From assembly GCF_030408455.1 (NCBI RefSeq), contig NZ_CP046977.1, forward strand, positions 1-64,000: a DNA stretch of 64,000 nt, read 5' to 3'. The notes beneath the pieces were generated by a model. The model was not told the origin of the DNA, made no database searches, and saw only the letters and a list, made by a program, of their open reading frames with translations. Numbering within the stretch: position 1 is the stretch's first letter; each line of letters opens with the position of its first letter. The DNA is from Corynebacterium atrinae. GTDB taxonomy: Bacteria > Actinomycetota > Actinomycetes > Mycobacteriales > Mycobacteriaceae. Positions 10,932 through 25,088 of the stretch are shown in pieces. The translations under genes and the position numbers were made by a program.

Positions 10932-11273
10932 ATGGCCAAGCGTGACGTAACGATCACCCGGATAGCCCCGCTCTCCGCGTTCCGAGTCGCCCTCGCCATG
11001 TCCCTCGTCGGACTCGTCGCCTGGCTCCTCACCGTCGTCCTGCTCTACATCGGCATGGACGCCGCCGGAGTCTGGGACCAAGTCAACTCCCTCATCGGCG
11101 ACGTCGGCGCAGACCAAGTCATCGGGTTCGGGCTCGTCATCTCCATCGCAGCCCTCCTCGGCGCCATCTGGGCGATCCTCGTGACCGTCCTGGCCCCCCT
11201 CGGCGCCATCATCTACAACGCCATTGTCGACCTCTTCGGAGGCCTCCAAATGCGCCTGCAAGAAGAAGCCTAA
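10932..11273 (+). CDS. DUF3566 membrane protein
   Basis: The 113-residue protein has a short basic N-terminus (MAKRDVTITRI), then two transmembrane helices at about residues 20-42 and 65-95, with ALLGAIWAILVTVLAPLGAIIYN in the second. This is the DUF3566 family found directly after gyrA across Actinobacteria. Function is unknown. Its ATG is three bases after the gyrA stop with GAGGAG just upstream, so it is cotranscribed with gyrA. A strong hairpin follows. Confidence 0.9.
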   Translation: MAKRDVTITRIAPLSAFRVALAMSLVGLVAWLLTVVLLYIGMDAAGVWDQVNSLIGDVGADQVIGFGLVISIAALLGAIWAILVTVLAPLGAIIYNAIVDLFGGLQMRLQEEA

Positions 11274-11290
11274 AAGGTAGTAGGGGCCGT

Positions 11291-11335
11291 CGCCTGGTTA
11301 AACACTTTAACGTGTTTAACCAGGCGATTTGTCTT
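11291..11335 (+). terminator. Strong terminator after gyrA-DUF3566
   Basis: A perfect 15-bp stem, CGCCTGGTTAAACAC (11291-11305) with its complement at 11312-11326, encloses a six-base loop and is followed by ATTTGTCTT. The stem is near symmetrical and AT-rich at its tip, so it may act in both directions. Confidence 0.85.
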
Positions 11336-11372
11336 AATTGTCCCCGTCTGGGTAATGTACTCTCTGTTCCCA

Positions 11373-11446
11373 GGGCCTATAGCTCAGTCGGTTAGAGCGC
11401 ATCGCTGATAACGATGAGGTCGCAAGTTCGATTCTTGCTAGGCCCA
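11373..11446 (+). tRNA. tRNA-Ile (GAT)
   Basis: The 74-nt cloverleaf has acceptor GGGCCTA pairing with TAGGCCC, D-arm GCTC..GAGC, anticodon loop CTGATAA with GAT, and T-arm GCAAG-TTCGATT-CTTGC. The discriminator is A and no CCA is encoded. TAATGT at about 11353 could serve as -10. It is the usual first gene of the tRNA-Ile/tRNA-Ala pair after gyrA. Confidence 0.97.
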
Positions 11447-11455
11447 CAGGAACAT

Positions 11456-11528
11456 GGGGCATTAGCTCAATTGGTAGAGCATCTGCTTTGCAAGCAGAAG
11501 GTCAGGAGTTCGATTCTCCTATGCTCCA
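11456..11528 (+). tRNA. tRNA-Ala (TGC), integration target
   Basis: The 73-nt cloverleaf has acceptor GGGGCAT with ATGCTCC (one G-T pair), anticodon TGC in CTTTGCAAG, and T-arm CAGGA-GTTCGAT-TCCTA. The last 38 bases, from 11491, are part of a 119-bp direct repeat whose second copy starts at 20072. The element inserted here therefore left a complete tRNA on the left side. Confidence 0.97.
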
Positions 11529-11609
11529 CAGAAAAAGGGCCACCACCAGCACAAACACCAAGTGCCGGCGGTGGCCCTCGTGGTGTCCAGGGCCCAACCC
11601 CACATTTAC
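11491..11609. repeat. attL, left 119-bp direct repeat
   Basis: It is identical to 20072-20190. It comprises the last 38 bases of tRNA-Ala, the tRNA terminator-like hairpin (GGGCCACC 11537-11544 with GGTGGCCC 11570-11577) and the first base of the CCCCACATTTA motif array. The integrase stop codon (11606-11608, minus strand) lies inside it. Confidence 0.95.
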
Positions 11610-11619
11610 CCCACATTTT
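11598..11619. repeat. Arm-type integrase site candidates, left end
   Basis: Two tandem 11-mers, CCCCACATTTA (11598-11608) and CCCCACATTTT (11609-11619), lie at the inner edge of attL. The motif recurs at 14837-14858 in reverse and at 19928-19964 near the right end, a pattern expected for integrase arm sites. Confidence 0.5.
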
Positions 11620-12859
11620 CATTTAAATAGGTGACCTTCGGAGCCAGGCCCTGGACCACATCGGATACATCCGAATTGACGTGACGCCAGTCCGTGTAAG
11701 CAGCCTCAGTGATACGAGTGTTTGAATGGCCTAGGACCTTGGCCGCGGCCAGCGAGTTGCCGGTGGTTGCAGTGATGTGAGTACCGTTTGTTCGCCGGAG
11801 ACTGTGGAATGTCACCCATTCAAACTCCGGTCCCCGTGCCTTCCTCAAAGCGGTATTCACGTTTGCAGGTTGTCGTGGAGTGCCCTCCGATGTGGCAATG
11901 ATCCATGGCACACCGGGTACGCGTTCAGACTTGAGCCGACGGAGGATTACGACGGCGAAAGCTGGGATAACCACTACACGCCGCCCGGCCTCCGTCTTGG
12001 GCTTGTCTTGGCGATACAGGCCCCCAGGCAGACCAAGACGCTGACCTTCGGCCTTTGAACGCCACTTCAAAGTTGCGTTGATCGTGACGGTGGGGCTGTT
12101 GCCTTCTAGGTCTGCCACGTCCTCCCACTGAAGGGCTAGCAGCTCGCCAATACGGCACCCTAGGGCAAGCTGGAGGTCAAATACGTCCATGAGATAGACC
12201 GCACGGGGACGGCCACCAGCTCCGGCGCCCGAAGCCCTTTTAGCGCGAGGGCCACCTGTGGTTTCGTACTCATGGATGCGCCTACGCATTTCAGTGAGTT
12301 CATCTAGGGTGAGAGCTCGCGTTGGGTCACGTTCATCGCGGCCAACGTCGATGTTGGCGGCCGGATTGTGGTCTACAGCACCTAAGCGGATCGCATAGCT
12401 GAACATTGATGTCAGGGTACGTTTCATTTCCGCACGTACACGCTTCCTCGAACCGGCCTTGGTCAGTACAGCCCGTTCTAGCCGGTCTACCGTGCATTCT
12501 CTAATCGCTAGCTCCCCGCATGCCTCAACCACGTAGTCGCGGTAGCGGATGTATTCGCGGCGAGTGTCTTGGTTAAGGTCACCGTCAACCACGCGCCGTT
12601 CGATGGTCTCCCACCATCGATTGGCAAGGGTTCGTAGTCGAGTGTCGCCGCCAAGTTTGCTGTCACGTTCTCCGACACGTTCCTTGACCCTCGCCTTTAG
12701 GGCGCGTTCAGCCTTCGGCTTAGTTGCGCCATTGGCTTCTACATCACGCATGGTGCCATCGAGTCCCCGGAAACGGGCCCGTGCCCGGTATTGGCCTCCT
12801 GGCAGACGAACGGTTGTGATCCTGCCGTGCTCCCCGATAGTCAGCCGAGGTCTAGGCAT
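11606..12859 (-). CDS. int: Tyrosine site-specific integrase
   Basis: This 417-residue phage-type integrase would catalyse recombination at the tRNA-Ala attachment site. The catalytic domain shows Arg in LGCRIGELLALQWEDV, the HxLRR box in FHSLRRTNGTHI, and the late LGHSNTRITEAAYTDW with the nucleophilic Tyr. The N-terminal 60 residues form an arm-binding AP2-like domain (LPGGQYRARARFRG), and a SAM-like core-binding domain follows. The ATG overlaps the upstream repressor stop by eight bases, so the two are coupled. Its 3' end runs into attL, a normal position for integrases. Confidence 0.95.
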   Translation of the reverse strand: MPRPRLTIGEHGRITTVRLPGGQYRARARFRGLDGTMRDVEANGATKPKAERALKARVKERVGERDSKLGGDTRLRTLANRWWETIERRVVDGDLNQDTRREYIRYRDYVVEACGELAIRECTVDRLERAVLTKAGSRKRVRAEMKRTLTSMFSYAIRLGAVDHNPAANIDVGRDERDPTRALTLDELTEMRRRIHEYETTGGPRAKRASGAGAGGRPRAVYLMDVFDLQLALGCRIGELLALQWEDVADLEGNSPTVTINATLKWRSKAEGQRLGLPGGLYRQDKPKTEAGRRVVVIPAFAVVILRRLKSERVPGVPWIIATSEGTPRQPANVNTALRKARGPEFEWVTFHSLRRTNGTHITATTGNSLAAAKVLGHSNTRITEAAYTDWRHVNSDVSDVVQGLAPKVTYLNENVG

Positions 12860-13508
12860 CTTCCACTACACCGCCCGCCTCTTGAACGCGTTTGATGTAA
12901 AGCTCAATGGAGTGTCGTAGTACGTGATTCAAGCTTCGCTGCCGTTCAACCTCTTCTAGGTCGCCATCTTCAAGATAGCTAGCTAGGGCCTCTTCACCTT
13001 GTGAGAGCTCAAAGCGCGCCCTATCTAGGAAGAGTGAGCGATCGATGAGTTGCCTCCCTGAATCCCATTCCGTGGCTTCCTGCTCATCATCCGGGTGTAT
13101 GTATCTCGCCCCCTGTTCATTCTCAACAATCCGAAACTCCTTGTGTGGAGTCTCAGGACGATCGGTTCCAGAGGTCAAGTGAGCTGCCCACACGGAACTC
13201 GTGGTGTAGCCGGGAAAAGCTTCAACCTCACCGTCAGGTAGATCGGGATAGAGCAACGCAACAAACGGGGTGCGCAGGGCGTAGGCCAATGCAAGGGCAT
13301 CGCCAAGCATTAGGCGATCCTTGCGTCTGCCAAGTTCGAAGTCTGTAATCGCTGTTCGGCTAATCGCGTGTCCGAACTGGGAAGTGCGCTCTGACACTTC
13401 TTGTGTAGTGAGTCCGAGTTGTTTCCGCCTGGCACGAGCGGCGGTAGCAAAGCGCTTCACGAGATCTTCTGACCATTCTGACATGGGTTTAAGCGTAGTC
13501 AACGTCAC
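12852..13508 (-). CDS. HTH (XRE-type) repressor of the island
   Basis: The product is about 218 residues. An XRE helix-turn-helix lies near the N-terminus (RRKQLGLTTQEVSERT, then ISRTAITDFELGRR), and the rest is acidic with no recognised protease or dimer motif. I placed the start at GTG 13508, which has GAAAGGA 11 bases upstream. ATG 13484 is closer to the HTH but lacks a ribosome site. It is transcribed away from the rightward genes, with inverted TGTG/CACA repeats in the shared promoter region. The role as lysogeny-type master repressor is inferred from position and fold. Confidence 0.8.
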   Translation of the reverse strand: MTLTTLKPMSEWSEDLVKRFATAARARRKQLGLTTQEVSERTSQFGHAISRTAITDFELGRRKDRLMLGDALALAYALRTPFVALLYPDLPDGEVEAFPGYTTSSVWAAHLTSGTDRPETPHKEFRIVENEQGARYIHPDDEQEATEWDSGRQLIDRSLFLDRARFELSQGEEALASYLEDGDLEEVERQRSLNHVLRHSIELYIKRVQEAGGVVEDA

Positions 13509-13556
13509 GTCGTCACCATTCCTTTCGGTTCCTGTGGGGGTCCAAGCAACCCCAAC

Positions 13557-13616
13557 ACTACATGTGTGGCCCTGCACATTACAATGATATCTGGCACAGT
13601 CATATGTGACAGCACA
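13557..13616. promoter_or_regulatory. Divergent promoter/operator region of the island
   Basis: TACAAT at 13580-13585 is a good -10 for rightward transcription. ATGTG (13562-13566) faces CACAT (13575-13579), and TGTG (13605-13608) faces CACA (13613-13616) around ACAG. These half-sites between repressor and the first rightward gene are probable repressor targets. Confidence 0.45.
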
Positions 13617-13634
13617 CAATCAGACCTTGAAAGG

Positions 13635-13853
13635 ATGGCTGAGTTGCAGCCGAAACAAGACTTCACCCTCATCCCCGCAAAGATGACGGCCCAACATCTG
13701 GGAGTGTCCACCCAGGCCCTGGCCAAAATGCGTATGAACGGAACAGGGCCAGCGTTCATCAAGATCGGCGCCCGGGTGCTTTACCACCCCGATGACATCA
13801 CCGCCTACGTCGATGCCAACCGCCGTACCCACACCACGCCCGAGGTGGCGTAG
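13635..13853 (+). CDS. Excisionase-like MerR-type HTH protein
   Basis: The 72-residue protein reads FTLIPAKMTAQHLGVSTQALAKMRMNGTGPAFIKIGARVLYHPDDITAYVD across its helix-turn-helix and wing, the layout of AlpA/excisionase-type DNA-binding proteins. It opens the rightward operon opposite the repressor, the usual place for xis. The ATG at 13635 directly abuts GAAAGG, which is too close to be an ideal ribosome site. TTG 13644 or an upstream ATG at 13584 are alternatives. Role as recombination directionality factor is inferred. Confidence 0.7.
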   Translation: MAELQPKQDFTLIPAKMTAQHLGVSTQALAKMRMNGTGPAFIKIGARVLYHPDDITAYVDANRRTHTTPEVA

Positions 13854-13855
13854 TC

Positions 13856-14092
13856 ATGGTCGATCACCACACCGATCATGGCGCCGTCACCGAAACCGCC
13901 GACGGCCTGACCATCACCACACCCACCGGCGCATGGCGCCTAGACGATGCCGCCGCCCTGGCCCTTGCCACGAAGCTCACCAGCACCCTCCACGCCCGAC
14001 TCACCCGCCCATGGGATGACACTGACACCACGTCGATCCTCGACCGGGGGACGAACGGGGACCACAGCAACGCTGAGCAGGGAACCGCATGA
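13856..14092 (+). CDS. Hypothetical island protein
   Basis: This 78-residue Thr/Asp/Ala-rich protein contains WRLDDAAALALATKLTSTLHARLTRPW, one amphipathic helix, and otherwise low complexity. No fold is recognised. It starts two bases after the excisionase-like stop and overlaps the next gene by four bases (ATGA), so it is part of a tightly packed operon. Confidence 0.55.
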   Translation: MVDHHTDHGAVTETADGLTITTPTGAWRLDDAAALALATKLTSTLHARLTRPWDDTDTTSILDRGTNGDHSNAEQGTA

Positions 14093-14283
14093 GCCACCAC
14101 GACCGCATCGACACACTAATCACTGAGCTTCACGATTTGAACAGGCAGTACATGGCCCTGCTGGACAACGGGACTGACGAAGAGCTCGCCGCCATGGACG
14201 AACAGATCATTCCGCGACAGGCCGAGCTAGTGAAGCTCATTAACGAGTCCTACGAGTCCGTCAACGGTGATCGCCGTGGGTAA
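14089..14283 (+). CDS. Hypothetical helical island protein
   Basis: This 64-residue acidic protein is predicted to be wholly helical, with IDTLITELHDLNRQYMALL and then AAMDEQIIPRQAELVKLIN as two heptad-like helices, suggesting a small coiled coil. It overlaps the previous stop as ATGA and the following frame by 17 bases. No function is assigned. Confidence 0.6.
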   Translation: MSHHDRIDTLITELHDLNRQYMALLDNGTDEELAAMDEQIIPRQAELVKLINESYESVNGDRRG

Positions 14284-14491
14284 GCGCACGACGATCACCC
14301 TGCAGGGCGGGGCAACGTACAGCGGGCAAAGCGTGGAGACCATCGTCCGCCGGGAATGGGGCCGTAGGGCCCGGTTTACCCCCTCCCTCAACCCGAACAC
14401 CCCGGAGGCTGGACACATCGTCCACCCATCGGCCTATGACCCGAAGGTGAGCCACATCATCGCCCCGGTCCTCCACATCGAGACGACATGA
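14267..14491 (+). CDS. Hypothetical island protein
   Basis: The 74-residue protein begins at GTG 14267 (an internal GTG at 14276 is also possible). It is basic at the N-terminus (RTTITLQGGATYSGQ, VRREWGRRARFTPSL) and has no recognised domain. It overlaps the upstream gene by 17 bases. It is kept because frame usage and packing fit the operon. Confidence 0.5.
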   Translation: MIAVGKRTTITLQGGATYSGQSVETIVRREWGRRARFTPSLNPNTPEAGHIVHPSAYDPKVSHIIAPVLHIETT

Positions 14492-14535
14492 GCACCCCCC
14501 GAGCCACTCGCCAACTCCCCCGCAAACAAGAAAAA

Positions 14536-14561
14536 CCCTGTGGTGTTGCAGCACCACAGGG
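14536..14561. terminator. Stem-loop before a small ORF
   Basis: CCCTGTGGTG (14536-14545) pairs perfectly with CACCACAGGG (14552-14561) around a six-base loop, preceded by AAAAA and followed by AAAC. GGAAGG and an ATG follow 20-35 bases later. A second stem-loop of the same design lies at 15266-15292. It may act as minus-strand terminator, RNA-stability element or regulator. Confidence 0.55.
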
Positions 14562-14595
14562 AAACGATCACCAAATCACTGGAAGGCAGATCACT

Positions 14596-14839
14596 ATGAA
14601 TTCTACCAGCTACGAACCCCCGAACTTCATTGAAGAGGTCAGCAAGCGCGTCCACGTTTTCATTGACCGAACGCCACATGATCCGTATGCGAGTGTGTGT
14701 GTCCCTGGAAGGTCAGCCGGAGGACTGCACGGACCTCACAGAGGAAGAAACGCGGTCACTCATTGCTGAGCTTCAAGCGGGGTTGGCCGTCCTGGAACAG
14801 CGGGAGCCGGTGCCGTTTTGGCCGGTGGCGACTGCGTAA
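14596..14839 (+). pseudogene. Frameshifted island ORF at a (GT)5 repeat
   Basis: A frame with good ribosome site GGAAGG starts at ATG 14596 (MNSTSYEPPNFIEEVSKRV) but turns into Gly/Arg-rich nonsense after PYASVCV. A second frame from about 14678 reads VCVSLEGQPEDCTDLTEEET and continues plausibly to a stop at 14837-14839. The two meet at GTGTGTGTGT (14693-14702). Adding one GT unit would fuse them into a single 81-residue protein. It is either a recent slip or a phase-variable gene. No function is recognised. Confidence 0.55.
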
Positions 14840-14858
14840 ATGTGGGGTTTATGTGGGG
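14837..14858. repeat. Internal copies of the arm-type motif
   Basis: TAAATGTGGGG (14837-14847) and TTTATGTGGGG (14848-14858) are a tandem pair in the opposite orientation to the pair at attL, immediately after the frameshifted ORF. The following 200 bases to 15058 hold no gene that I can support, and include TTATCCACAGG at about 14999. Confidence 0.45.
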
Positions 14859-15058
14859 TAGTACAGGAAATGGACTACTTCAGCAAAGTGCCGACCTAGA
14901 AATAGCAGGTCAAAGCACATAATTAGCTGACGTGTGAAGTTTCAAACTACTGATTGCCCCTTTGTGAACAGGGTTTTCTGGGCGTGAACTATCGGAGTTA
15001 TCCACAGGATCGCTCTTAAAACCCTGACCGCCAATGCCAACGTGTGACAGTTAACGCC

Positions 15059-15250
15059 ATGGATACCCCGCCGCAATTCATCCACATCCACACAGCAGCC
15101 ACTCGCTACGGCATCTCACTGCGCACCCTCCACCGCCGACTCAGTGACGGGTTGCTCACCCGCTACCGACAGCCGGGCAACCCCCACAGGGTCCTACTGT
15201 CCGTCACCGAGCTAGACGCCCTGTTCTACCCCACACCCCAGGCCGTCTAG
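15059..15250 (+). CDS. Second excisionase-like HTH protein
   Basis: The 63-residue protein reads TAATRYGISLRTLHRRLSDGLLTRYRQPG and continues with HRVLLSVTELDALF, a MerR-type helix-turn-helix plus wing. It resembles small phage DNA-binding proteins or excisionases. No clear ribosome site precedes ATG 15059, and a GTG at 15044 would add five residues. Its presence beside the ATPase gene suggests control of the replication module, by inference. Confidence 0.65.
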   Translation: MDTPPQFIHIHTAATRYGISLRTLHRRLSDGLLTRYRQPGNPHRVLLSVTELDALFYPTPQAV

Positions 15251-15265
15251 CCAGGCAAAGAAAAA

Positions 15266-15292
15266 CCCCGGTGCGCGCTCACGACACCGGGG
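15266..15292. terminator. Stem-loop before the replication module
   Basis: CCCCGGTG (15266-15273) pairs with CACCGGGG (15285-15292) around an 11-base loop, preceded by AAAAA and followed by AAC. GAAGGGAA and an ATG (15321) follow. It shares its flanks with the stem-loop at 14536. Confidence 0.55.
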
Positions 15293-15320
15293 AACATTCC
15301 CAGAAGGGAACAAACCAACG

Positions 15321-15614
15321 ATGAACACACTAACACACCGCAACGACGCTCAACAATCCTTCGTACTGGAGTGCGCACGGCGACGATACAAAGCCGCTGA
15401 CAGATTGTCGCCACTTCCCGGATACAACCAGCGTGATCCCGATAGGAGCAGGACCATTAACCCAACCATGGACACACGAACGATTGTGTCAATCGCTGAA
15501 AAGGGTGGTCTGCTGTCCGCTGAGCAGCTTCGGGCCGCGTGGAGGGCTCACCCTAAGTGCCGGACGATGTTGGAGGCAGTCGCCTACCTGCAGCGCGACG
15601 GGTGGGCCGCATGA
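15321..15614 (+). CDS. Hypothetical island protein upstream of the ATPase
   Basis: The 97-residue protein has a basic N-terminal half (CARRRYKAADRLSPL) and a C-terminal half with TIVSIAEKGGLLSAEQLRAAW and LEAVAYLQRDGW, likely a small helical bundle. AGAAGGGAA lies nine bases before the ATG. Its stop overlaps the ATPase start as ATGA, so the two are translationally coupled and possibly work together. Confidence 0.6.
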   Translation: MNTLTHRNDAQQSFVLECARRRYKAADRLSPLPGYNQRDPDRSRTINPTMDTRTIVSIAEKGGLLSAEQLRAAWRAHPKCRTMLEAVAYLQRDGWAA

Positions 15615-16813
15615 CCTCCCCTCACCTCACTACCGTCCCCCACGTCGAAGACCTTGCCATGGGCCCCGAAGAAGCCGCCGCCGCGTTCGTAGAAGACCTT
15701 GCGAACCAACGGATCAGAAGCGGCACGTGGCTTAACAATCAGGTATTCGACCCCCTGCAATGGTCTGTCCCCAACATCCTCCCCGAGGGCTACGCCATGC
15801 TTGTCGCCCCACCGAAGGCTGGAAAGTCCTGGCTTGTCGCCGGAGTTGGGTTGGCGTGCGCCGCCGGGGGCTACGCACTAGGCGGCATCCGCGTGGAGGC
15901 GCGCCCCGTGCTCTATTTCGCCTTGGAAGACGGCGACCGGCGCCTACAAGATAGGTTCCGCAAGCTGGAGGGCTGTAACTTCATTCCCCGAGCCATGCAC
16001 CGCATCCTAGAAGTCCGAGACCTCAACGAGCTAGTGATACTCGCTGAGCACTTTCAAGACCTGTGCTTACAAGACAAGACACTGCCCCCGCTCATTATCG
16101 TTGACACCCTTGGAAAAGTGAACCCCGGACGCAAGGGCAACGAGTCTCAATACGATGCCGAATACGGCGTGGGCTCACGACTTCAAAACCTCGCCAAACG
16201 CGTACCAGGAACCACCGTCCTTGCAGTCCACCACACCAACAAGGGCGAACACTCCGACTTCCTCAACAGCGTCTCAGGCACCCAAGGTGTCACCGGCGCG
16301 TGTGATGCCGTCCTAGTCCTCAACCGCGCCCGCAAATCAGATGACGCCGTGCTCTCAATCACGGGGCGGGACATCGAGCATGAGACCGAGTACGCGATTA
16401 CTTCGGAGGCCGGGAAGTGGGTACTAAAGGGTGGCAGTCTCGCAGAAGCCGAAGACGCAGCGCAAGAAGTCAAAGCCGACCAGGTGGAAGCGGCATCACG
16501 GGCACGCTACGGCGACCAGACACAGGCCATTCTCCGCGCCGTCAACGACGTTGGACCCGGTGAGACGATCACAGCGAAAGACGTCGCCGAAGACTTAGGG
16601 ATCGGCAACGACATGGCCGGTAAGTATCTGCGTCGCTTGATGAAAGACGGCCGTATTGCCAAGGCGGGAAGAGGTACCTATAAACCGCTGTCCGAAGTGT
16701 CCGAAGTGTCCGATTCCCAGGTCACAGGGCTAAAAGACTCACTTTTCGATTCGGACAATTCGGACATGTCCGAAACGGACTCACCACCGATTAGCAGCCT
16801 GACCAGCCATTAG
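15611..16813 (+). CDS. RecA-fold AAA ATPase, RepA/DnaB-like (AAA_25)
   Basis: The 400-residue protein has Walker A in VAPPKAGKSWLVAGV (about residues 68-80) and Walker B in LIIVDTLGK, followed by VLAVHHTNKG. This is the AAA_25 pattern of plasmid RepA and phage replicative ATPases. A C-terminal winged-helix segment (TITAKDVAEDLGIGNDMAGKYLRRL) could bind DNA, and the last 35 residues are Ser/Asp-rich. The ATG overlaps the previous stop by four bases. An earlier in-frame start at 15557 lies inside the upstream gene and is less likely. Seven TTCGGAC repeats lie in and just after its 3' end, suggesting a replication module. Confidence 0.85.
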   Translation: MTSPHLTTVPHVEDLAMGPEEAAAAFVEDLANQRIRSGTWLNNQVFDPLQWSVPNILPEGYAMLVAPPKAGKSWLVAGVGLACAAGGYALGGIRVEARPVLYFALEDGDRRLQDRFRKLEGCNFIPRAMHRILEVRDLNELVILAEHFQDLCLQDKTLPPLIIVDTLGKVNPGRKGNESQYDAEYGVGSRLQNLAKRVPGTTVLAVHHTNKGEHSDFLNSVSGTQGVTGACDAVLVLNRARKSDDAVLSITGRDIEHETEYAITSEAGKWVLKGGSLAEAEDAAQEVKADQVEAASRARYGDQTQAILRAVNDVGPGETITAKDVAEDLGIGNDMAGKYLRRLMKDGRIAKAGRGTYKPLSEVSEVSDSQVTGLKDSLFDSDNSDMSETDSPPISSLTSH

Positions 16814-16834
16814 GACACTTCGGACAGTTCGGAC
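16690..16834. repeat. Iteron-like TTCGGAC repeat cluster
   Basis: The heptamer GTCCGAA or its complement TTCGGAC occurs at 16690-16696, 16699-16705, 16750-16756, 16759-16765, 16768-16774, 16819-16825 and 16828-16834. Spacing inside pairs is nine bases, and 16759-16774 is a perfect palindrome. The array straddles the ATPase stop codon. Such direct and inverted arrays beside a replication gene are typical of origins bound by the initiator. Confidence 0.6.
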
Positions 16835-16925
16835 ACCCATATGAGATACCTCGCCCGCCCACCGCCGTAACCAAACCTCACATCACCCCAACCCAACCCG
16901 CACACCGTCAAGGAGACACCCCCCG

Positions 16926-17591
16926 ATGACCATCATCGACCCGTTCAACATCGAAACCGAACTCTGGTACACCATCAGCGACTACGAAACCGCCGGGAAA
17001 GCACTCGCCGCCCACCGCGCCGACTACACCCCCGAAGGACTCGCCAACGCCTTCACCACCCGCACCCAGAAAACAGCCCTCAAGCTCACCACCATCCGGG
17101 CCACCATCGACACCTACGCCGATGCCCTCAACAACGTCGCCACCTACGAACAGGCCGCGCTGCTCCCGCCGGTAACCGGCGCGTACTCCACCGCCGATGA
17201 ACTCGCCGCCGCCCGCATCCTCGCCCGCCCCGGCACCTGGGACCACAAGCGCTACATCGAGACCATCACCCCGAAGTTCGGCACCACCGCCGCAACACTG
17301 CTCACCGAAGAGCTCACCGCCCGCGGACTCTCCACCGACATCGTGGACGCCGCCCTGTCCGCCAACGAACGCTACAAAGCCGCCATGGACCTCCACCTGC
17401 AGATGACCATGGGCCTCAATGCTGTCCTCCGTCCCCTGCTGAAAGAAGCCGAACGCGCCGCCAACGCCGAGACGTGGGTCAGCCACCACAAGTACCCCGG
17501 CAACTCCGCCGTTGGACTGAGCGACGTCCACGAAGACCTCACGCTTCATACCTCCGGCAAGATCAACGCCCGATCCCTCACCAACCGCTAG
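16926..17591 (+). CDS. Hypothetical island protein
   Basis: This 221-residue, Ala/Thr-rich and largely helical protein shows ISDYETAGKALAAHRADYTPEGL at its start and a long helix MDLHLQMTMGLNAVLRPLLKEAER near its C-terminus. AAGGAG lies ten bases before the ATG. It heads a pair with the following coiled-coil gene (13-base gap). It has no recognised family. High C at third positions matches the neighbouring island genes. Confidence 0.7.
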   Translation: MTIIDPFNIETELWYTISDYETAGKALAAHRADYTPEGLANAFTTRTQKTALKLTTIRATIDTYADALNNVATYEQAALLPPVTGAYSTADELAAARILARPGTWDHKRYIETITPKFGTTAATLLTEELTARGLSTDIVDAALSANERYKAAMDLHLQMTMGLNAVLRPLLKEAERAANAETWVSHHKYPGNSAVGLSDVHEDLTLHTSGKINARSLTNR

Positions 17592-17604
17592 GAGCACCCC
17601 CACC

Positions 17605-18105
17605 ATGAGCCACTACACAGACCTACTTGCCCGCATCGAACACGGCTACTACATCGACCCCCAACAGTTGGCACACGCCAAGCACGACCACGACCAGCAA
17701 ATCGAAGCCGCCGCCGTGGATCAACAGCTCGCCGACGATAAGGCCGCCGCTGAAGCCGCCTTCAAAAAGCACCACAGCAAGCACAACGCCACCCACCAGC
17801 CCGTCATCACCAAGCTGCTCACCGACCTCAAGGCCGCCCACGCCGACCTGGTAGACGCCACAACCGCGTTCACCGAAGCCCAACGGGCCTACAACCAGAT
17901 CAAAGCCACCCGTGATGCTAAACGCCAAGAGCTCTACGACTACATCAACGAGCACTACGGCCACCGTGACTACATGATCGACACCCGGGTAGGTAAGTCC
18001 CTCTACGACACCCACATCGGCGGCATGGGCGCTGTCATCGTAGAAGGCAAGGTCATCAACTACGACGGCACCGCCCGCAACGATGGGGCAAGCGATGACA
18101 ACTAA
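17605..18105 (+). CDS. Hypothetical coiled-coil island protein
   Basis: The 166-residue protein has a long heptad-like region from about residue 30 to 115 (DQQIEAAAVDQQLADDKAAAE, then LVDATTAFTEAQRAYNQIK) followed by a compact end with DTRVGKSLYDTHIGGMG. It is rich in His, Ala and Gln. GGAGCA precedes the ATG. It could be a scaffold or structural accessory protein, but nothing specific is recognised. Confidence 0.7.
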   Translation: MSHYTDLLARIEHGYYIDPQQLAHAKHDHDQQIEAAAVDQQLADDKAAAEAAFKKHHSKHNATHQPVITKLLTDLKAAHADLVDATTAFTEAQRAYNQIKATRDAKRQELYDYINEHYGHRDYMIDTRVGKSLYDTHIGGMGAVIVEGKVINYDGTARNDGASDDN

Positions 18106-18253
18106 CCCCCAACAGCACGCCACGGACCCCATGACCTGTGAGTTCGTGACCATGATCCAACGAGAAATTGCAGCACTAGACCCCACCAAGGATACCGACG
18201 TGACCGAGCTCGCCGCTATCGCCCGGACGGTCACCGGCGTCTTGGAGGGCTAA
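18095..18253 (+). CDS. Small hypothetical island protein (52 aa)
   Basis: An ATG at 18095 inside the end of the coiled-coil gene opens a 52-codon frame (MTTNPQQHATDPMTCEFVTM and on to TVTGVLEG). It overlaps the upstream gene by 11 bases and ends 18 bases before the next. The C-terminal half DVTELAAIARTVTGVLEG is a plausible amphipathic helix. It is short, so confidence is moderate. Confidence 0.5.
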   Translation: MTTNPQQHATDPMTCEFVTMIQREIAALDPTKDTDVTELAAIARTVTGVLEG

Positions 18254-18271
18254 GAGAGGGAAGGTTAGACC

Positions 18272-18766
18272 GTGCCAGTCCACCCCGTGAAAAAACCGAA
18301 GCCCGCCGACGTGAAGCGCCTCCACGCCGCTGGGTGTGGCCGCAACGAGACTGCCCGCCGGTTGGGTGTCTCCCGCCGTCAGGTTGATCGCGTCGCCGAC
18401 AAACTTGGGTTGGAGTGGAACACGAACATGACCGAGGAAGCTGTCACCGCCCGCCGCAAGGCCGCTGAAAATGAGCGGCGGGACTTGGGTGACGGTTTCC
18501 GTGAGGTCGCCCTCGACTGCGTGACCCGCGCCTTGCTGGAGGAAGAGGACACTGCTGAGCGGCGCCGTCTTGTCCTTACTGCGGAAGCAGCGTCGCGTAG
18601 TGACCTTGCTTTGTTCAATGCGACGGGAGTGTCGGGGGATCGTGCTACTGAAGAGTTGGCGGCCGTGTTGGAGACGTTGCGGGGGAGTTTCGCGACGCTG
18701 GATTCCGAGCCGCTAGACGATCTAGAGGATGTGGACGACTATTCCGATGAATATGATGGTTTCTAG
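18272..18766 (+). CDS. HTH protein, possible small terminase subunit-like
   Basis: The 164-residue protein has an N-terminal Hin-like helix-turn-helix (ADVKRLHAAGCGRNETARRLGVSRRQVDR). A long helical region with RRRLVLTAEAASRSDLALFN follows, and the tail is very acidic (DDLEDVDDYSDEYDGF). HTH plus helical oligomerisation region and length fit phage small terminase subunits, which recognise packaging sites, but no alignment was run. A plain regulator is equally possible. It starts at GTG 18272 with GGGAAGG upstream. A TerS in an element without capsid genes would point to satellite packaging. Confidence 0.6.
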   Translation: MPVHPVKKPKPADVKRLHAAGCGRNETARRLGVSRRQVDRVADKLGLEWNTNMTEEAVTARRKAAENERRDLGDGFREVALDCVTRALLEEEDTAERRRLVLTAEAASRSDLALFNATGVSGDRATEELAAVLETLRGSFATLDSEPLDDLEDVDDYSDEYDGF

Positions 18767-18790
18767 GGCGTACTGCAGCTAGGGCATGTT

Positions 18791-18836
18791 TTGACACTGT
18801 GACGAATACCCGTGCTGAGCAGCACGAAACGGGTAT
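18791..18836 (+). promoter_or_regulatory. Promoter-like sequence with hairpin before 18872
   Basis: TTGACA (18791-18796) resembles a -35 element. ATACCCGT (18806-18813) pairs with ACGGGTAT (18829-18836), with GTGCT/AGCAC nested inside. AT-rich sequence with TATTCGAATGAT follows before the next ribosome site. It could be a terminator, operator or leader structure. Confidence 0.35.
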
Positions 18837-18871
18837 CAATTATTCGAATGATAACGAAGAGGTGAGAGCAG

Positions 18872-19174
18872 ATGAATAACGAGCTACTCCCCGGCATCGA
18901 CCGTTACGCCTCGGCTGAGGCTGCTCTCCTTCGCTACGCCGATGATGCGGACTGGGCTTACCGTGCCTCTATCAACATGGGATACGGCGAGTACTGGAAC
19001 GGCGTGGAGGACCTCCTCGACATGTTCGACCGCGTGCAGGTGACCCCAGTCCCGCATGATGTGATCGAGAATGCACGGAAGGTGCTCACCAACCCTGACG
19101 AGTGGACTGATGAGGAGATAGCACGCGCTAACCGCGTCCTCGATAAGGTTGCCGCGCTAGGCGAGCCCACCTAG
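18872..19174 (+). CDS. Hypothetical acidic island protein
   Basis: The 100-residue acidic protein contains YASAEAALLRYADDADWAYRA and YWNGVEDLLDMFDRVQV, and ends in EWTDEEIARANRVLDKV. It is likely an all-helical globular protein. AGAGGTGAGAG precedes the ATG. It is separated from upstream genes by a hairpin, so it may have its own promoter. No family is recognised. Confidence 0.65.
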   Translation: MNNELLPGIDRYASAEAALLRYADDADWAYRASINMGYGEYWNGVEDLLDMFDRVQVTPVPHDVIENARKVLTNPDEWTDEEIARANRVLDKVAALGEPT

Positions 19175-19284
19175 CCCCCTCACCGCGCCGCTGCACGGCC
19201 ATAGGGCGCGTTCGCAAGCCCCGAGGACCGTCCCGCCTAAGTTGACCGTCTAACCGCCGAGCAGGGTGTTGAATCATCCCGAAC

Positions 19285-19917
19285 ATGGGAGAGAGCGCAC
19301 CATGCCACCGAAGCAAGAACAAAGCATTCATCAACCCCTACGGGGCACACGATCGGTCTATCCGGGCCGCGCAAAAGATGTGTTCCCAATGCCCTGTGAT
19401 CCGGGAGTGTGCCCTAGAGGCGCTGCGCTCCGGCTCCACCCTTGATGACAGCATTGTCACGTTGGGCCGGGAGGTGATCGCCGCCGGGCATGTCCTCCCG
19501 AAGGGTGACGCGTCGAATGATGACGTTTGGCCGGTGGCCCGCAAACTCGCCAAGATCGCTAGGGTTCGGCCCCCTGCCTATGTGGTGTCACGGCCACGGT
19601 TTCGCCCACCGTCTCAGTGTCGTGAGTGTGGGAGGCCGATGGTGCCATGGACGCGGGGAGAGGTCCCCGAGGGGATGGCTATGCATTACGCGCAGGGGTG
19701 GGGTCAGTGTTGCCGTTCGGCGTATCGGATGCATCGGGAAGTGAGGGAGGTTCCCGTGACGCGGAAGCCGGTTGATCGGAAGCGTCATCATCCCGAGACG
19801 GCTAGGGCGCGTGCAGCCACAGCAGCGAGACGGGCCACTAATTGCCTTCGTACAAGTGAACTATCGACCGCCACGGGCGGGGAAGACAGGTCTGGAGCCA
19901 CTGGAGCAGGTGGGTAG
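19285..19917 (+). CDS. WhiB-like protein with a C-terminal Cys-rich extension
   Basis: The 210-residue protein has the four WhiB cysteines: Cys7, Cys33, Cys36 and Cys42 in KMCSQCPVIRECALEAL, which in the family ligate a 4Fe-4S cluster. The usual GVWGG turn is not evident. A second Cys set follows (CRECGRPMVPW ... GWGQCCRSAYR), a possible zinc ribbon, then a basic Arg/Ala tail. WhiB-like proteins of about 80-120 residues are common regulators in Actinobacteria and their phages. The length and second metal site are unusual. It is the last gene before the right attachment site. Confidence 0.75.
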   Translation: MGESAPCHRSKNKAFINPYGAHDRSIRAAQKMCSQCPVIRECALEALRSGSTLDDSIVTLGREVIAAGHVLPKGDASNDDVWPVARKLAKIARVRPPAYVVSRPRFRPPSQCRECGRPMVPWTRGEVPEGMAMHYAQGWGQCCRSAYRMHREVREVPVTRKPVDRKRHHPETARARAATAARRATNCLRTSELSTATGGEDRSGATGAGG

Positions 19918-19927
19918 TTCCTAATTG

Positions 19928-19964
19928 CCCCACATTTACCCCACAAATTGGAGTAAATGTGGGG
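19928..19964. repeat. Arm-type motif array, right end
   Basis: CCCCACATTTA (19928-19938) and CCCCACAAATT (19939-19949) are followed by inverted TAAATGTGGGG (19954-19964). This sits about 110 bases inside attR, as expected for integrase arm sites on the P' side. Confidence 0.5.
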
Positions 19965-20071
19965 CAATCTAGCGGAATGTTCGAATAGCATGCCAATTTA
20001 CAAAACCTATTTTGACCGGCGCAATAGCGCGCAACAGTGTGCATTGGATACTAGAACAAGATAGCTAATCA

Positions 20072-20190
20072 CAAGCAGAAGGTCAGGAGTTCGATTCTCC
20101 TATGCTCCACAGAAAAAGGGCCACCACCAGCACAAACACCAAGTGCCGGCGGTGGCCCTCGTGGTGTCCAGGGCCCAACCCCACATTTAC
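20072..20190. repeat. attR, right 119-bp direct repeat
   Basis: It is identical to 11491-11609 and contains a 38-base 3' fragment of tRNA-Ala that is not a functional tRNA. The match breaks at 20191, where IS-end-like sequence begins. Confidence 0.95.
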
Positions 20191-20265
20191 GGGTTAAGTA
20201 GCAAAATGTGTGTCTTTGCGGCGTGTCGACTTAAGGGACATTTTGTGTGTCTTTGTCAGTGGGAT
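20191..20265. repeat. Remnant IS ends
   Basis: Two related pieces, TAAGTAGCAAAATGTGTGTC at about 20194 and AAGGGACATTTTGTGTGTC at about 20234, look like insertion-sequence termini. A close relative of the first lies on the minus strand at 49338-49368 after tRNA-Leu. No transposase is attached to either. Confidence 0.4.
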
Positions 20266-20383
20266 CGTCCGGCCCAGCCCTGGCGGACCCACTGGGACTG
20301 TGAGCGCTCGATCCCGGTGTCGAATCCTACCGGGCGCCCGTCGCTGGGGCCGGATCGTCGTTGGCAATCCTGCTTGATGAGTT

Positions 20384-20734
20384 GTGCTGCCCGGCGTTTG
20401 CCGACCCGACGACCTCCCGCGCCTGCGTGTCTACGCCCGCATCTTCGGAGCGGACACCGTGGCGAAGCGAAGGGGCTACTACGTCGATGCTCGCCCGCAC
20501 GCCCATGCTGAGAACCAGGCCTGCACCGCGCAGCAAGCTCGCGCCGAAATCGAAGCGCTACGCGCCCTCACCCCCGCCGTGGCAGTCGAGCGAATCGATC
20601 AGACCCGCGCGGCGGAACAGGCACAGCGTCACGCGGCCGAGCGTACCCTGAACGAGCGCCAACGCCAGCTCGGTTCCGCGCCGTACTCCCGCGACCACGG
20701 CGACCGCTACAGCGGGCCGTCGCTCAGCCGGTGA
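20384..20734 (+). pseudogene. Fragment, probably 3' end of a relaxase/mobilisation gene
   Basis: The 116-codon frame contains DDLPRLRVYARIFGADTVAKRR and ARPHAHAENQA, ending in a Gln/Arg-rich tail (AERTLNERQRQLG). It resembles the C-terminal tail of large TraA/MobF-type relaxases of actinobacterial plasmids. No N-terminal catalytic part is present and there is no ribosome site. The assignment is tentative. It sits between the island's attR and a third att-like copy, in a stretch of debris. Confidence 0.35.
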
Positions 20735-20844
20735 CGGGACCGTTTCACGAACGCCCCCGCGTAGCAGGAACGATGTCGCATAGGCATACGACCCGTCGGG
20801 CTGGGTTCGCCCGAGGTGGAACAGTGGTGTGGGATAATGGGAAA

Positions 20845-21213
20845 GTGGAGACCAATGACCACGCGGAGGTGACGGAGCAGCTCCGCGCTCTGGAGCCGAT
20901 CTTCCATCGTGCCGAGGTTGGTTCCGGCCGTGAGGTTTTCGAGTCGATGACCGCCGCGGGTTATTGGGAGGTCGGGGCGAGCGGTCGCGTCTATGCGCGG
21001 GAGTACGTCATCGAGACGTTGGTCGAGCGATACGCCCATCCGTATAAGGATCTATGGACGATCGACAAGTTCGAAGTGCGTAGCTTGGCCGATGGCCTTT
21101 TCCTCGTTACTTACGAACTCGACCAGGAGGGCAGGCGCAGCCGACGCTCGACGATCTGGCGCTGGTCGTCGCGCGGATGGATCGCGGAGTATCACCAAGG
21201 TACCTTGGCCTAG
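20845..21213 (+). CDS. DUF4440/SnoaL-like (NTF2-fold) protein
   Basis: The protein of about 122 residues reads LRALEPIFHRAEVGSGREVFESMTAAGYWEVGASGRVYARE and continues to STIWRWSSRGWIAEYHQGT, typical of DUF4440 NTF2-like proteins of unknown or diverse function. The GTG at 20845 fits homologue length. GATAAT just upstream at about 20833 could be a -10, making the message nearly leaderless. A longer frame from 20731 has no ribosome site. The neighbours are fragments, so this may be a cargo survivor of an older insertion. Confidence 0.65.
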   Translation: METNDHAEVTEQLRALEPIFHRAEVGSGREVFESMTAAGYWEVGASGRVYAREYVIETLVERYAHPYKDLWTIDKFEVRSLADGLFLVTYELDQEGRRSRRSTIWRWSSRGWIAEYHQGTLA

Positions 21214-21321
21214 TTCGCCAGGTTCATCGTGGGGCGACGTAGCTGGACGCACACTCCGGCTCGCTACCGGAGCTACGGCCCCTACTGATCACGCGCGACT
21301 GAATGGCTGCGACTCGTCGGC

Positions 21322-21597
21322 CTACCGCGTCTTAAACCACACCGTGCCCCAGTGAACCCGGAACTGACGCGCCAGAGTATTCACGCTGATCCCTTGCGCT
21401 CGGGCCGTTCGCATAGCGTCCACTTCGGTGTCTGTGAGGCGTGTTCGAGGTCGCTTCTTTGGTTCCGCCGACGCGCCGATCAATGGTTCGTCCAGCTCTC
21501 CGGCAGGGTCTGCATCTTCGCGGATGCCCTGATTCCACGCGGAAACAAGCCTCTCAACCCGAGGTCGTCTGTTCCCGTAGTACTCCATTGCGTCCAC
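21322..21597 (-). pseudogene. C-terminal fragment with resolvase-type HTH
   Basis: The 91-codon frame has a linker (RRPRVERLVSAWNQGIRED), then TRLTDTEVDAMRTARAQGISVNTLARQFRVHWGTVW, a Hin/resolvase-type helix-turn-helix. A catalytic Ser domain is missing. The frame begins right at the third att-like copy, so the 5' part was probably lost when that junction formed. It could instead be a small HTH protein in its own right. Confidence 0.4.
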
Positions 21598-21598
21598 A

Positions 21599-21690
21599 AA
21601 AAAGGGCCACTACCAGCACAAACGCCAAGTGCCGGCGGTGGCCCTCGTGGTGTTCAGGGCCCAACCCCACATTTACCCCACACATTAGGC
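21599..21690. repeat. Third, diverged att-like copy
   Basis: From AAAAGGGCCACTACCAGC to CCCCACATTTA (21665-21675) this stretch matches the non-tRNA part of attL/attR with a few substitutions, and continues past the attR breakpoint as at attL (a further CCCCACA). The preceding ATTGCGTCCACA looks like a decayed tRNA-Ala end. It marks an older integration or a tandem element. Confidence 0.7.
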
Positions 21691-21711
21691 GATGTGCGTT
21701 ATCTGGTGGGC

Positions 21712-21795
21712 CTATCCTGCCGTGGTTTCGATGCTGAGCGATCTCGAGCGGAATTCCAATCTCGAACCTAAAAGCCTTAGGGACTCGGTTACGTC
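21712..21795 (-). pseudogene. Detached 3' end of the ImmA/IrrE-type gene
   Basis: On the minus strand this stretch reads SLRLLGSRLEFRSRSLSIETTAG and then a stop. LLG is what is expected after the YRDAYR segment of the gene that ends abruptly at 23236 on the other side of the IS256-family element. It is probably the severed tail. Confidence 0.45.
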
Positions 21796-21802
21796 CTTTA
21801 GC

Positions 21803-23235
21803 GTGGTGTATCTGTAACTGCCGGTGACGACCCCCAGAGAAAATGTGGGCGACCACCGCAGTACCTTTCGAATCAACTCTTACCTCTCCTCGAAAGGGAA
21901 CCCACGATGGCCGCTGGCCCCCATTCTATCGACCCGACCACCTACCTCGACGATCTACTCTCCCAGGCCTCGCCGGACCTGATGCGCGAGATGCTCCAAA
22001 GCTTCATCAACCAGATTCTGTCGACCCAGGCCGACCAGGTCTGCGGCGCCGATTACGCCACCACCAGTGATGCTCGCGTCAACGTCCGCAATGGCTACCG
22101 CCACCGCGACCTCGACACCCGCGTCGGCACCGTGGATGTCGCCGTGCCGAAGCTGCGCACCGGCTCATTCTTTCCGGACTGGCTGCTAGAACGACGCACC
22201 CGAGCCGAACGGGCCCTGACCACCGTCATCGCCACTTGCTACCTGAAGGGCGTGTCCACCCGCAGGATGAACGACCTGGTCGCCACCCTCGGGATATCCA
22301 ACCTGTCGAAGTCGCAGGTATCCGAGATGGCCAAGGATCTTGACTCCATGGTGGAGGATTTCCGCACCCGGCCGCTGGATACCAGCCCGTATCTCTACGT
22401 CTCGTGTGACGCCCTAACCATGAAAGTCCGCGAAGGCGGACGGGTGGTCAAGACCTCCGTGCTGCTGGCCACCGGCGTCAACGCCGAAGGCTACCGGGAA
22501 TTGCTGGGCATGCAGGTCGCCACATCCGAGTCAGTCGCCTCATGGACCGGCTTCTTCCGCGATCTCAAGGCCCGGGGCCTAGATGAGGTGTACCTGGTCA
22601 CCAGTGATGCGCACGTGGGTATCCAGCACGCGATCGGCGAGGTCCTGCCGAATGCGTCGTGGCAGCGGTGCCGCACTCATTTTGCGAAGAACCTGTCCGG
22701 GCTGGTGTCGAAGACGCAGTGGCCGACATTATCGGCGATGTTCCACACGATCTTCCAGCAACCGGATGCAGCATCGGTGTGGGCCCAGGCCCGCGAAGTC
22801 GTGACCTTCTGCGAGCAGAAGTTCCCGCACGTAGCCGACTACCTGGAGGAGTCCCTAGACGAGCTGTTGGCCTTCACCCACGCCCCGAAGAGCGTGTGGA
22901 AAAAAGTCTGGTCGAATAACCCCACCGAGCGGCTGAACCGGGAGATCCGCCGGCGTACCGACGTCGTCGGGATCTTCCCCAACCGGGACGCCGTGGTGCG
23001 TCTGGTGGGCGCGGTCCTGGCCGAGCAGCATGACGATTGGATACAGCAGAAGCGCTACATGTCGCTCACGGCACTGGAGCAGACGAAGGCCATGATGAGC
23101 GCCACCGTCATCGATGCCGGCGAATCCACTCAGGAGGTCGCATGAGTCGACACCACTACCGGGCTCGGGACGGCCCTTGCACCGTCATCCTGCCTGTTTT
23201 ATCGAAAGGCAGAAACACCACTCCCGCGGACTTGA
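21803..23235 (+). mobile_element. IS256-family insertion sequence
   Basis: GTGGTGTATCTG (21803-21814) and CAGAAACACCAC (23210-23221) form an 11/12 inverted repeat around a complete transposase. The outer right border near 23235 is set by where the interrupted ImmA/IrrE frame becomes IS sequence. Exact ends and target duplication are not resolved. Confidence 0.75.
21907..23145 (+). CDS. IS256-family transposase
   Basis: The 412-residue Mutator-type transposase appears intact. The DDE residues are visible in YVSCDALTMKVREGGRV, VTSDAHVGIQHAIGE and the late NNPTERLNREIRRRTDVVGIFPN. The N-terminal NGYRHRDLDTRVGTVDVAVPKLRTG block is typical. GAAAGGGA precedes the ATG. Only about 60 bases separate the stop from the right inverted repeat. 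It is not closely related to the second IS256-type copy at 49631. Confidence 0.95.
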   Translation: MAAGPHSIDPTTYLDDLLSQASPDLMREMLQSFINQILSTQADQVCGADYATTSDARVNVRNGYRHRDLDTRVGTVDVAVPKLRTGSFFPDWLLERRTRAERALTTVIATCYLKGVSTRRMNDLVATLGISNLSKSQVSEMAKDLDSMVEDFRTRPLDTSPYLYVSCDALTMKVREGGRVVKTSVLLATGVNAEGYRELLGMQVATSESVASWTGFFRDLKARGLDEVYLVTSDAHVGIQHAIGEVLPNASWQRCRTHFAKNLSGLVSKTQWPTLSAMFHTIFQQPDAASVWAQAREVVTFCEQKFPHVADYLEESLDELLAFTHAPKSVWKKVWSNNPTERLNREIRRRTDVVGIFPNRDAVVRLVGAVLAEQHDDWIQQKRYMSLTALEQTKAMMSATVIDAGESTQEVA

Positions 23236-24330: not shown

Positions 24331-24434
24331 CACGTCCACTTCCCCTTGGTCAACAGGCAAGATGTTGTTACAGAAGGCAGACTACATGGCCACCCCGACA
24401 TGACCATCCCAAACGAGATCAGACCCGGTTGACG

Positions 24435-25088
24435 TCAGAATCTCTCAACCAAAAACCCGTTCAGAGCAGAAGTGAAAAGCTCGGGCTTCTGCGTATTCAC
24501 CTGGTGCCCGGCGCCGCCGATGATGTGGAGATCGGTGTCGGGGATGCCGGCGGCGAGGGCACGCGCGGCTGGTAGGTTTGCCCGATCTCTGGAGCCGCAG
24601 AGTACCAATGTCGGTGCGGTTACCTCAGCCAGGCGGGTGGAAAAGTCAACTTTCGCTACGCCGCGCAGAACGGACAGTAGTTGGGGTTTTCGCAGGCCAC
24701 TCCTTGCAATCAACCGCGCCGGCACGAGCCGCATGATGGCAGTCTGGGTCCGCATCACAGTTCGCGGTGGCGTCACCTGTCCGGCCGCCAGGGTGAGGGA
24801 GCGCACTCGCTCCGGGTGATCGATGGCGATCTGCAGTGCGATCATCGCCCCCAACGACAACCCGCACAGGTGAAAATTATCGACGCCGCGATGGTCAAGC
24901 TCCGAGAGGATGCCCGCCGATGCGGCCGGGAGTGAGAACTCCCCACTGATCTCGTCACCCGCCCTGAGGCCAGGAATCCTGATGGCCATGCCGGTGAATC
25001 CGGCCGGAAGGTGGTTGACCTGGTGGTTCCAGGCTTCGGGGCTGTCGCCGAGCCCGTGGATGAAGATTACGGTGTGTTCGCCGTCCAT
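24435..25088 (-). CDS. Alpha/beta hydrolase
   Basis: The protein of about 217 residues has the oxyanion HGLGDSPEAW near the N-terminus, the nucleophile elbow GLSLGA (Ser), the acid strand TLVLCGSRDRANLP and the terminal GGAGHQVN His. That completes a Ser-Asp-His triad. It resembles 3-oxoadipate enol-lactonase-type hydrolases, but the substrate is unknown. Start choice is uncertain: ATG 25097 or 25142 are possible, and none has a good ribosome site. It diverges from a cyclophilin-like remnant. Confidence 0.8.
   Translation of the reverse strand: MDGEHTVIFIHGLGDSPEAWNHQVNHLPAGFTGMAIRIPGLRAGDEISGEFSLPAASAGILSELDHRGVDNFHLCGLSLGAMIALQIAIDHPERVRSLTLAAGQVTPPRTVMRTQTAIMRLVPARLIARSGLRKPQLLSVLRGVAKVDFSTRLAEVTAPTLVLCGSRDRANLPAARALAAGIPDTDLHIIGGAGHQVNTQKPELFTSALNGFLVERF

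Follow-up and report, generated by a model that had tools for sequence, protein, structure and literature searches.

A predicted TerS-encoding, PICI-like phage satellite at tRNA-Ala of Corynebacterium atrinae and a family of related elements

Gene content and boundaries of the element

The stretch analyzed here (the window) comprises the first 64,000 nucleotides of a Corynebacterium atrinae contig (NZ_CP046977.1, assembly GCF_030408455.1), in which an 8.7-kb element is integrated at a tRNA-Ala gene. Its genes make it very probably a phage satellite that encodes a small terminase subunit (TerS) and resembles the phage-inducible chromosomal islands (PICIs), of the type of the Staphylococcus aureus pathogenicity islands (SaPIs). 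The PICI label fits as a description of how the element would work. The element is bounded by two direct repeats, taken as attachment (att) sites, that are 100% identical over 119 bp and lie 8581 bp apart from start to start; the left one begins within the tRNA-Ala gene (11456-11529). The features of the locus, including helix-turn-helix (HTH) proteins and small open reading frames (ORFs), are as follows.

11491..11609, + strand: attL, 119-bp direct repeat that opens with 39 bp of tRNA-Ala, its 3' half, and continues through the terminator region
11606..12859, - strand: tyrosine integrase, 417 aa (Phage_integrase, E 1e-10; phrog_1, E 9.5e-48)
12852..13484, - strand: HTH repressor (HTH_31, E 8e-4, weak, under the curated cut-off)
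13635..13853, + strand: excisionase-like HTH protein (HTH_17, E 5.8e-6, just under the cut-off; phrog_66 excisionase, E 1.2e-6)
13856-14092, 14089-14283 and 14267-14491, + strand: three small ORFs (gene calls)
14838..14859, no strand: repeat copy of the ACCCCACATTT type; further copies beside attL, at 19924-19968 and partly beside attR
15044..15250, + strand: second small excisionase-like HTH protein (weak PHROG matches; homologues in some relatives)
15611..16813, + strand: AAA_25-type replication ATPase whose C-terminal part is winged-helix-like (AAA_25, E 9e-24; phrog_6357, E 5.7e-39)
16689..16835, no strand: seven iterons, TGTCCGAA/TTCGGACA, where the ATPase gene ends
16926..17591, + strand: CAP, the second conserved protein of the putative satellites, predicted helical (leave-one-out E 2.7e-18, for a nominal 1000 sequences)
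17605..18105, + strand: coiled-coil-like protein 3' of CAP (gene call, without a significant family)
18272..18766, + strand: TerS-type protein, small terminase subunit-like (phrog_5536, E 1.9e-12; profile match to phage proteins neighboring the large terminase subunit, TerL)
18872..19174, + strand: small ORF, without a PHROG match at E 0.01
19285..19917, + strand: WhiB-like regulator with an extra C-terminal part (Whib, E 1.8e-7, over the cut-off; homologues in the related elements L016 and L018)
20072..20190, + strand: attR, 119-bp copy identical to attL
21583..21682, + strand: third att copy, partial, without the tRNA half, 93% identity

The repeats agree with the perfect 119-bp att pair of the original prediction, which had been made from the sequence alone; the third, partial copy is an addition to it. 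Pfam and PHROG matches likewise bear out the gene plan that it had described, with integrase and repressor leftward and, rightward, an excisionase-like gene, an ATPase gene with iterons, the HTH gene at 18272 and a WhiB-like gene. The excisionase-like gene is divergent from that of the repressor, whose family match is weak. The start of the repressor was placed by inspection at an internal ATG at 13484, which we prefer within an ORF open to 13619.

No structural, lysis or conjugation family appeared when 10 window products were scanned with E values up to 0.1 against the Pfam and PHROG collections, as had also been predicted, the exception being a chance-level PHROG 'head protein' row for the 17605 product (E 0.079). 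The same scans returned neither an FtsK-like transfer gene nor a relaxase, a feature of integrative and conjugative elements, and no capsid, portal or TerL gene of the element's own, the features of capsid-forming PICIs.

The iterons noted in the original prediction proved to be clustered beyond chance. Exact copies of TGTCCGAA, counted in both orientations, number 7 at 16689-16835, against a maximum of 3 in 40 dinucleotide shuffles of the element, and this cluster is a probable replication origin. SaPIs share an iteron origin and the gene polarity with this element.

The 18272 product and terminase-linked phage proteins

With the 18272 product as query, relatives were found in 7 other genomes of a sample of 242 Corynebacterium genomes, one per species. 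All 8 Corynebacterium copies match phrog_5536, a family annotated as 'unknown function' (best E 5.3e-20). As a single sequence the window TerS had no match in phages or viral contigs; a profile of four copies found relatives in 21 viral contigs, several of which are near-copies, so that the independent cases are fewer. The 16 of these 21 phage relatives that were scanned all match phrog_5536 as well.

In 21/21 viral contigs the next large ORF after the TerS relative encodes TerL. All 19 scanned products match Terminase_6N; the other two contigs (L060 and L067), left out of the TerL alignment and checked separately by tblastn, have a TerL match in the next ORF at 94% and 85%. Three contigs (L061, L073 and L074) have a called ORF of 53-58 aa between the two genes, and in L069 TerL is split over two ORFs. 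A similar arrangement occurs in annotated phages: Olihed gp1, Eastland gp1 and VanLee gp2 each lie directly 5' of a terminase-annotated gene, and in Theresita gp1, which is related to Olihed gp1, stands before a terminase listed as gene 2. The matches leading to Olihed, VanLee and Eastland are weak (E 0.04-0.9, with the relatives L018 and L020 as queries). A weak match in the cyanophage Cr-LKS4 was discarded, as it is not a terminase neighbor. An Anaerosphaera record gave a further weak match.

Comparison of profiles also ties the satellite and phage proteins together. A satellite profile aligned with a phage profile over 120 columns at a probability of 99.5, and larger profiles of 12 satellite and 19 phage rows aligned over 132 columns at 99.7%, a match that reaches beyond the HTH; two further HTH families encoded by these elements reached at most 20.8%. 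The AlphaFold model of the 18272 product (mean pLDDT, the predicted local distance difference test, 84.7) has an HTH and, after it, a long hairpin of helices; among viral structures it is closest to a VanLee HTH protein as long as gp2 (E 3.7e-5). Because it matches phrog_5536 and every one of the viral contigs has TerL as the large ORF that comes next, the 18272 product is read as a TerS-type protein, here without a TerL. The original prediction had named a possible TerS at this position, with matches to non-packaging regulators only as the finding that would speak against it; the evidence falls on the packaging side.

The satellite copies appear to form a lineage of their own. An internal segment of about 20-30 residues, judged by eye, is missing from 12/12 satellite TerS and present in 19/19 aligned phage copies. 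In a tree, satellite and phage TerS separate with 2 label changes, and none of 500 shuffles was as low; the two rows on the opposite side, one from a Corynebacterium genome (G146, locus L057) and the other from phage Olihed, are both long branches, and the bootstrap of the tree had not settled. The alignment of TerS from the viral contigs (A6) held 16 of the 21, leaving out L060, L066, L067, L073 and L075, mostly near-copies, and that of TerL (A5) held 19.

A family of related elements

The elements around the 7 relatives measure 6.4-8.9 kb and carry an integrase (a weak match in L017), regulators, a replication gene and the relative of the 18272 product. Six of the seven have direct repeats of 21-40 bp and lie in tRNA genes (Pro, Thr, Arg, Leu); the seventh, L022, has no tRNA and no bounding repeat of at least 20 bp, and its ends were set from neighboring genes. 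The CAP family is present in 9/242 Corynebacterium genomes, the ninth (G047) starting at a contig end. A draw of 351 genomes from the taxonomic family also gave 9 genomes with CAP, 5 of them from a second genus (g3), and a draw of 377 genomes from the order gave only the C. atrinae genome itself. In g3, whole elements of 6.6-7.2 kb lie at tRNA-Arg (L052) and tRNA-Asn (L053 and L054), and a whole element of 13.8 kb lies at tRNA-Met (genome G243); L055 is cut by a contig end and was not counted among the whole elements, and its partial TerS was left out of the tree.

This makes 12 whole elements of 6.4-13.8 kb. All but one lie in tRNA genes, of 7 types between them, and all 12 carry int, TerS and CAP. 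Direct repeats of 19-45 bp bound 10 of the 11 relatives' elements. Leave-one-out profiles recovered every member of the TerS and CAP families in the 8 Corynebacterium elements (E for a nominal 1000 sequences). On the gene content, a family of TerS-encoding, PICI-like satellites most likely spans the corynebacteria and one related genus. The original prediction had proposed a search for the same core at tRNA-Ala: elements with int, TerS and CAP do occur in relatives, but the family as a whole occupies 7 tRNA types and its replication genes differ.

Accessory gene content was assessed in 11 elements, all but that of G243, on 74 called products of at least 60 aa. This set excludes integrase, TerS, CAP and part of the excisionases, and lacks some small genes missed by the gene caller. 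At E 1e-5 the 74 products contain 11 Pfam families, all of replication, regulation or DNA binding. The Pfam scan of these 74 products returned no terminase or virion family and no relaxase, FtsK or partition family, and in a PHROG scan of the same products the 25 families listed, out of 44, were of replication, regulation or DNA-binding type or of unknown function. With this gene content and sizes of 6.4-13.8 kb, the homologues lie outside full-length prophages, the opposite of what the original prediction had named as contradicting a satellite.

Replication genes vary across the family and include AAA_25, D5/DUF5906-type and HTH_36-type genes and others, as assigned by Pfam. The window ATPase was rejected as a family marker, the C. 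atrinae genome being the sole match among the 242 at E 1e-10. It matches 6 phage records, all partially and at less than 60% identity, and none of the viral contigs. In 5 of the 8 Corynebacterium elements significant 8-mer clusters, each different, lie in the 3' part of the replication gene or just after it, a layout close to that of SaPI origins; by the same shuffle test iterons were not significant in L018, L020 and L021, nor in the g3 elements L052, L053 and L054 (G243 was left out).

CAP and a cassette on plasmid pAG3

CAP had no match in the viral contigs or phage collections searched. The family agrees on no PHROG; one of 8 members matches a terminase-small-subunit family at E 0.007, a match that was not relied on. 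Searched by sequence against the PDB, CAP gave weak chance rows only. CAP is a candidate capsid or packaging factor.

A search of 72,556 plasmids with CAP gave a single match, pAG3 of C. glutamicum (NC_004533, 4603 bp). Its genes at 4112-4585, 3344-4030 and 2840-3232 correspond to the TerS (91%), the CAP (78%) and the third gene of the element L019. At the DNA level pAG3 and L019 share one block, 2841-4598, with 78.6% identity over 1.76 kb, which coincides with the three genes. Outside this block, pAG3 gives a weak match to Rep_1 (E 7e-4) and resembles other Corynebacterium plasmids over short stretches. A plasmid search with the TerS of L018, a more distant copy, gave no match, though pAG3 carries a farther one. 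Like the window element, pAG3 has TerS and CAP, and it shares the third gene with L019; unlike the element, it has no annotated integrase and has a plasmid Rep.

The cassette of TerS, CAP and third gene thus seems to travel as a single block between plasmid and integrated element. A tentative extension, to which we give slightly less than even weight, is that TerS and CAP, with or without the third gene, form a portable packaging cassette that would make a tRNA-integrated element or a pAG3-like plasmid the passenger of a helper phage, with the satellite TerS as its own lineage and CAP as a new modifier of capsid or terminase. If so, lack of the internal segment would let the satellite TerS redirect the TerL of the helper, and pAG3, a small plasmid from a species used in the laboratory and in industry, may travel in phage particles.

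Interpretation and candidate helpers

A mode of life can be proposed from these genes. In the chromosome, the repressor would silence the rightward genes until helper infection or prophage induction relieves it; Int and Xis would then excise the element at tRNA-Ala, and the ATPase would replicate it via the iterons. The satellite TerS would recruit the TerL of the helper to satellite DNA, leading to packing into helper particles, and CAP would probably aid this packing and may adapt the capsid or the terminase. Involvement of the WhiB-like protein in induction is a guess. The original prediction of a PICI-like satellite is supported by both of the tests it had named, and we infer induction, packaging and the helper from gene content.

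Terminase_6N occurs in 14 of the 242 Corynebacterium genomes, at 16 loci. At one of these (L118, genome G038) a TerS of the phrog_5536 class (E 4.4e-30) overlaps TerL, and therefore a possible helper type is present in the genus, though it is not the common one. A second locus (L119) has a weak TerS match.

Several observations weigh against this satellite reading. The other 14 of the 16 TerL loci have no relative of the 18272 TerS within about 1.5 kb on either side. The C. atrinae genome has no TerL of this class: one search found no Terminase_6N, and another gave a single match of 34 residues at E 0.005 (the searches did not extend to other classes of TerL). The 9 Corynebacterium genomes with CAP have no Terminase_6N either, where chance alone predicts about half a case, so that this count is uninformative. 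Gene order is not constant: CAP lies 5' of TerS in the window and 3' of it in 11/11 other elements, within 100 bp in 9. The CAP model, built from two sequences, is poor (pLDDT 55.5) and its fold matches are meaningless, and the searches made found no relative of CAP outside the satellite family and pAG3. The G243 element encodes a 1483-aa tail tape-measure protein (L051:3956-8407; phrog_10780, E 1.8e-162), the sole G243 product scanned, which points to possible tail-length hijacking. The structure search proposed in the original prediction gave the VanLee protein, but its PDB rows, common helical arrangements, contained no solved TerS; by sequence, the TerS profile matched only resolvase-type HTH and chance rows in the PDB (best E 0.03). 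Finally, VanLee has a canonical TerS (phrog_83) as gp1 besides its phrog_5536 protein, gp2.

This last arrangement bears on the likeliest of the alternatives, in which the phrog_5536 protein is not TerS itself but, as a partner or regulator linked to the terminase, steers the TerS that the helper encodes. Some phages may thus use the phrog_5536 protein as a partner of their terminase, and the lack of a segment in the satellite copies would also suit such a role. In Olihed and Eastland, however, the phrog_5536 protein is the first gene, directly before the terminase, and no other TerS-like gene was noticed among the upstream neighbors in the viral contigs, which were viewed by eye and not scanned. 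We consider this explanation unlikely.

Less probable still is that the element is integrative or plasmid-like and uses the TerS-like protein and CAP to control replication, to partition or to stabilize itself and not for packaging, having acquired the HTH protein from a phage. The cassette on pAG3 and the failure to find a phage homologue of CAP speak for it, whereas the lack of relaxase, FtsK and partition families among the 74 products, the adjacency of TerS relatives to TerL in every viral contig seen and the tape-measure gene of one element, which points to virion assembly, argue against it.

A decayed prophage, which lost its structural genes by chance and kept int, repressor, replication gene and TerS, is very improbable: TerS does belong to a phage family, and the third att copy and a nearby transposase gene mark a turnover spot, but 12 elements from two genera, at 7 tRNA types and with differing replication genes, show this reduced plan again, every satellite TerS lacks the one segment and groups apart from phage TerS but for one phage row, and searches of the phage collections gave no CAP.

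Comparison with known satellites

PICIs are described (PMC6092414, PMC10690885) as having an integrase, a master repressor, their own replication and, in some cases, a TerS homologue, as lacking structural and lytic genes and as needing a helper. The integrase, repressor, own replication and TerS are common to PICIs, SaPIs and the present family, as is the absence of structural or lysis genes in the window element; the family differs in the phrog_5536 class of its TerS and in the conserved partner CAP. Its elements are mostly smaller (6.4-8.9 kb, with one of 13.8 kb) than the 'around 15 kb' given for PICIs in PMC6092414; PMC10803314 gives a PICI average of 9.5 kb.

The phage-inducible chromosomal minimalist islands (PICMIs) of Vibrionaceae are also small integrated satellites with few genes, but according to PMC10803314 they have no terS homologue, use the end of fis as their site and belong to another host group. 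Among actinobacteria, the candidate PICIs of Mycobacterium are defined by a capsid gene (PMC10654092), and the satellites of Streptomyces carry capsid, terminase and portal genes (PMC10690885); none of these was found here. Small actinobacterial prophage-like elements have been said to be possible satellites in PMC10023795. A full-text search of one library, judged by title and abstract, returned no description of Corynebacterium satellites or of a TerS-CAP cassette; pAG3 itself is mentioned in PMC4379921 and PMC4510995. The phrog_5536 TerS together with CAP provides a gene signature for finding satellites in corynebacteria and the related genus. The family phrog_5536, matched by the 18272 product and, in its satellite members, without the internal segment, also gains a suggested function.

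No match to phages or plasmids was obtained with whole-element DNA (first 8000 bases). PADLOC rows for mad1, mad8 and RTasDnaG-like, covering 2-3 of the 74 products each, were not accepted as defense.

Insertion site and minor observations

Rfam found two tRNAs and nothing else over 11000-22000. Relative G076 has, after the end of gyrA, the two tRNAs and the terminator, sequence that matches window 31395-31855, and therefore the region in C. atrinae is an insertion. By this comparison about 20 kb is inserted after tRNA-Ala in the C. atrinae genome, the element making up the first 8.7 kb. Most relatives have only about 40 bp, the tRNA part, in common with the right att copy. The ACCCCACATTT-type repeats are likely integrase arm sites, and the third att copy is possibly the trace of a second, older integration.

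The 8-row TerS profile matched 10/242 Corynebacterium genomes, 8 strongly, C. atrinae included, and 2 weakly. Neither weak match was accepted: G231 (E 4.6e-5) has no element within the stretch examined, and G146 (E 3.9e-6) has an element of another kind whose TerS groups with phages. The G146 element (L057:5688-16164, about 10.4 kb) lies at tRNA-Lys and carries a TerS-like gene of phage type and, after it, a restriction-modification gene of the MmeI type. An apparent transposase gene accompanies the tape-measure gene in the G243 element.

The added C-terminal part of the WhiB-like protein (19285-19917) is cysteine-rich. The second inserted block, next to the satellite at window 20191-31300, contains the partial att copy, a Mutator-family transposase gene (21907-23145) and a gene with an M78-peptidase domain (23185-24150).

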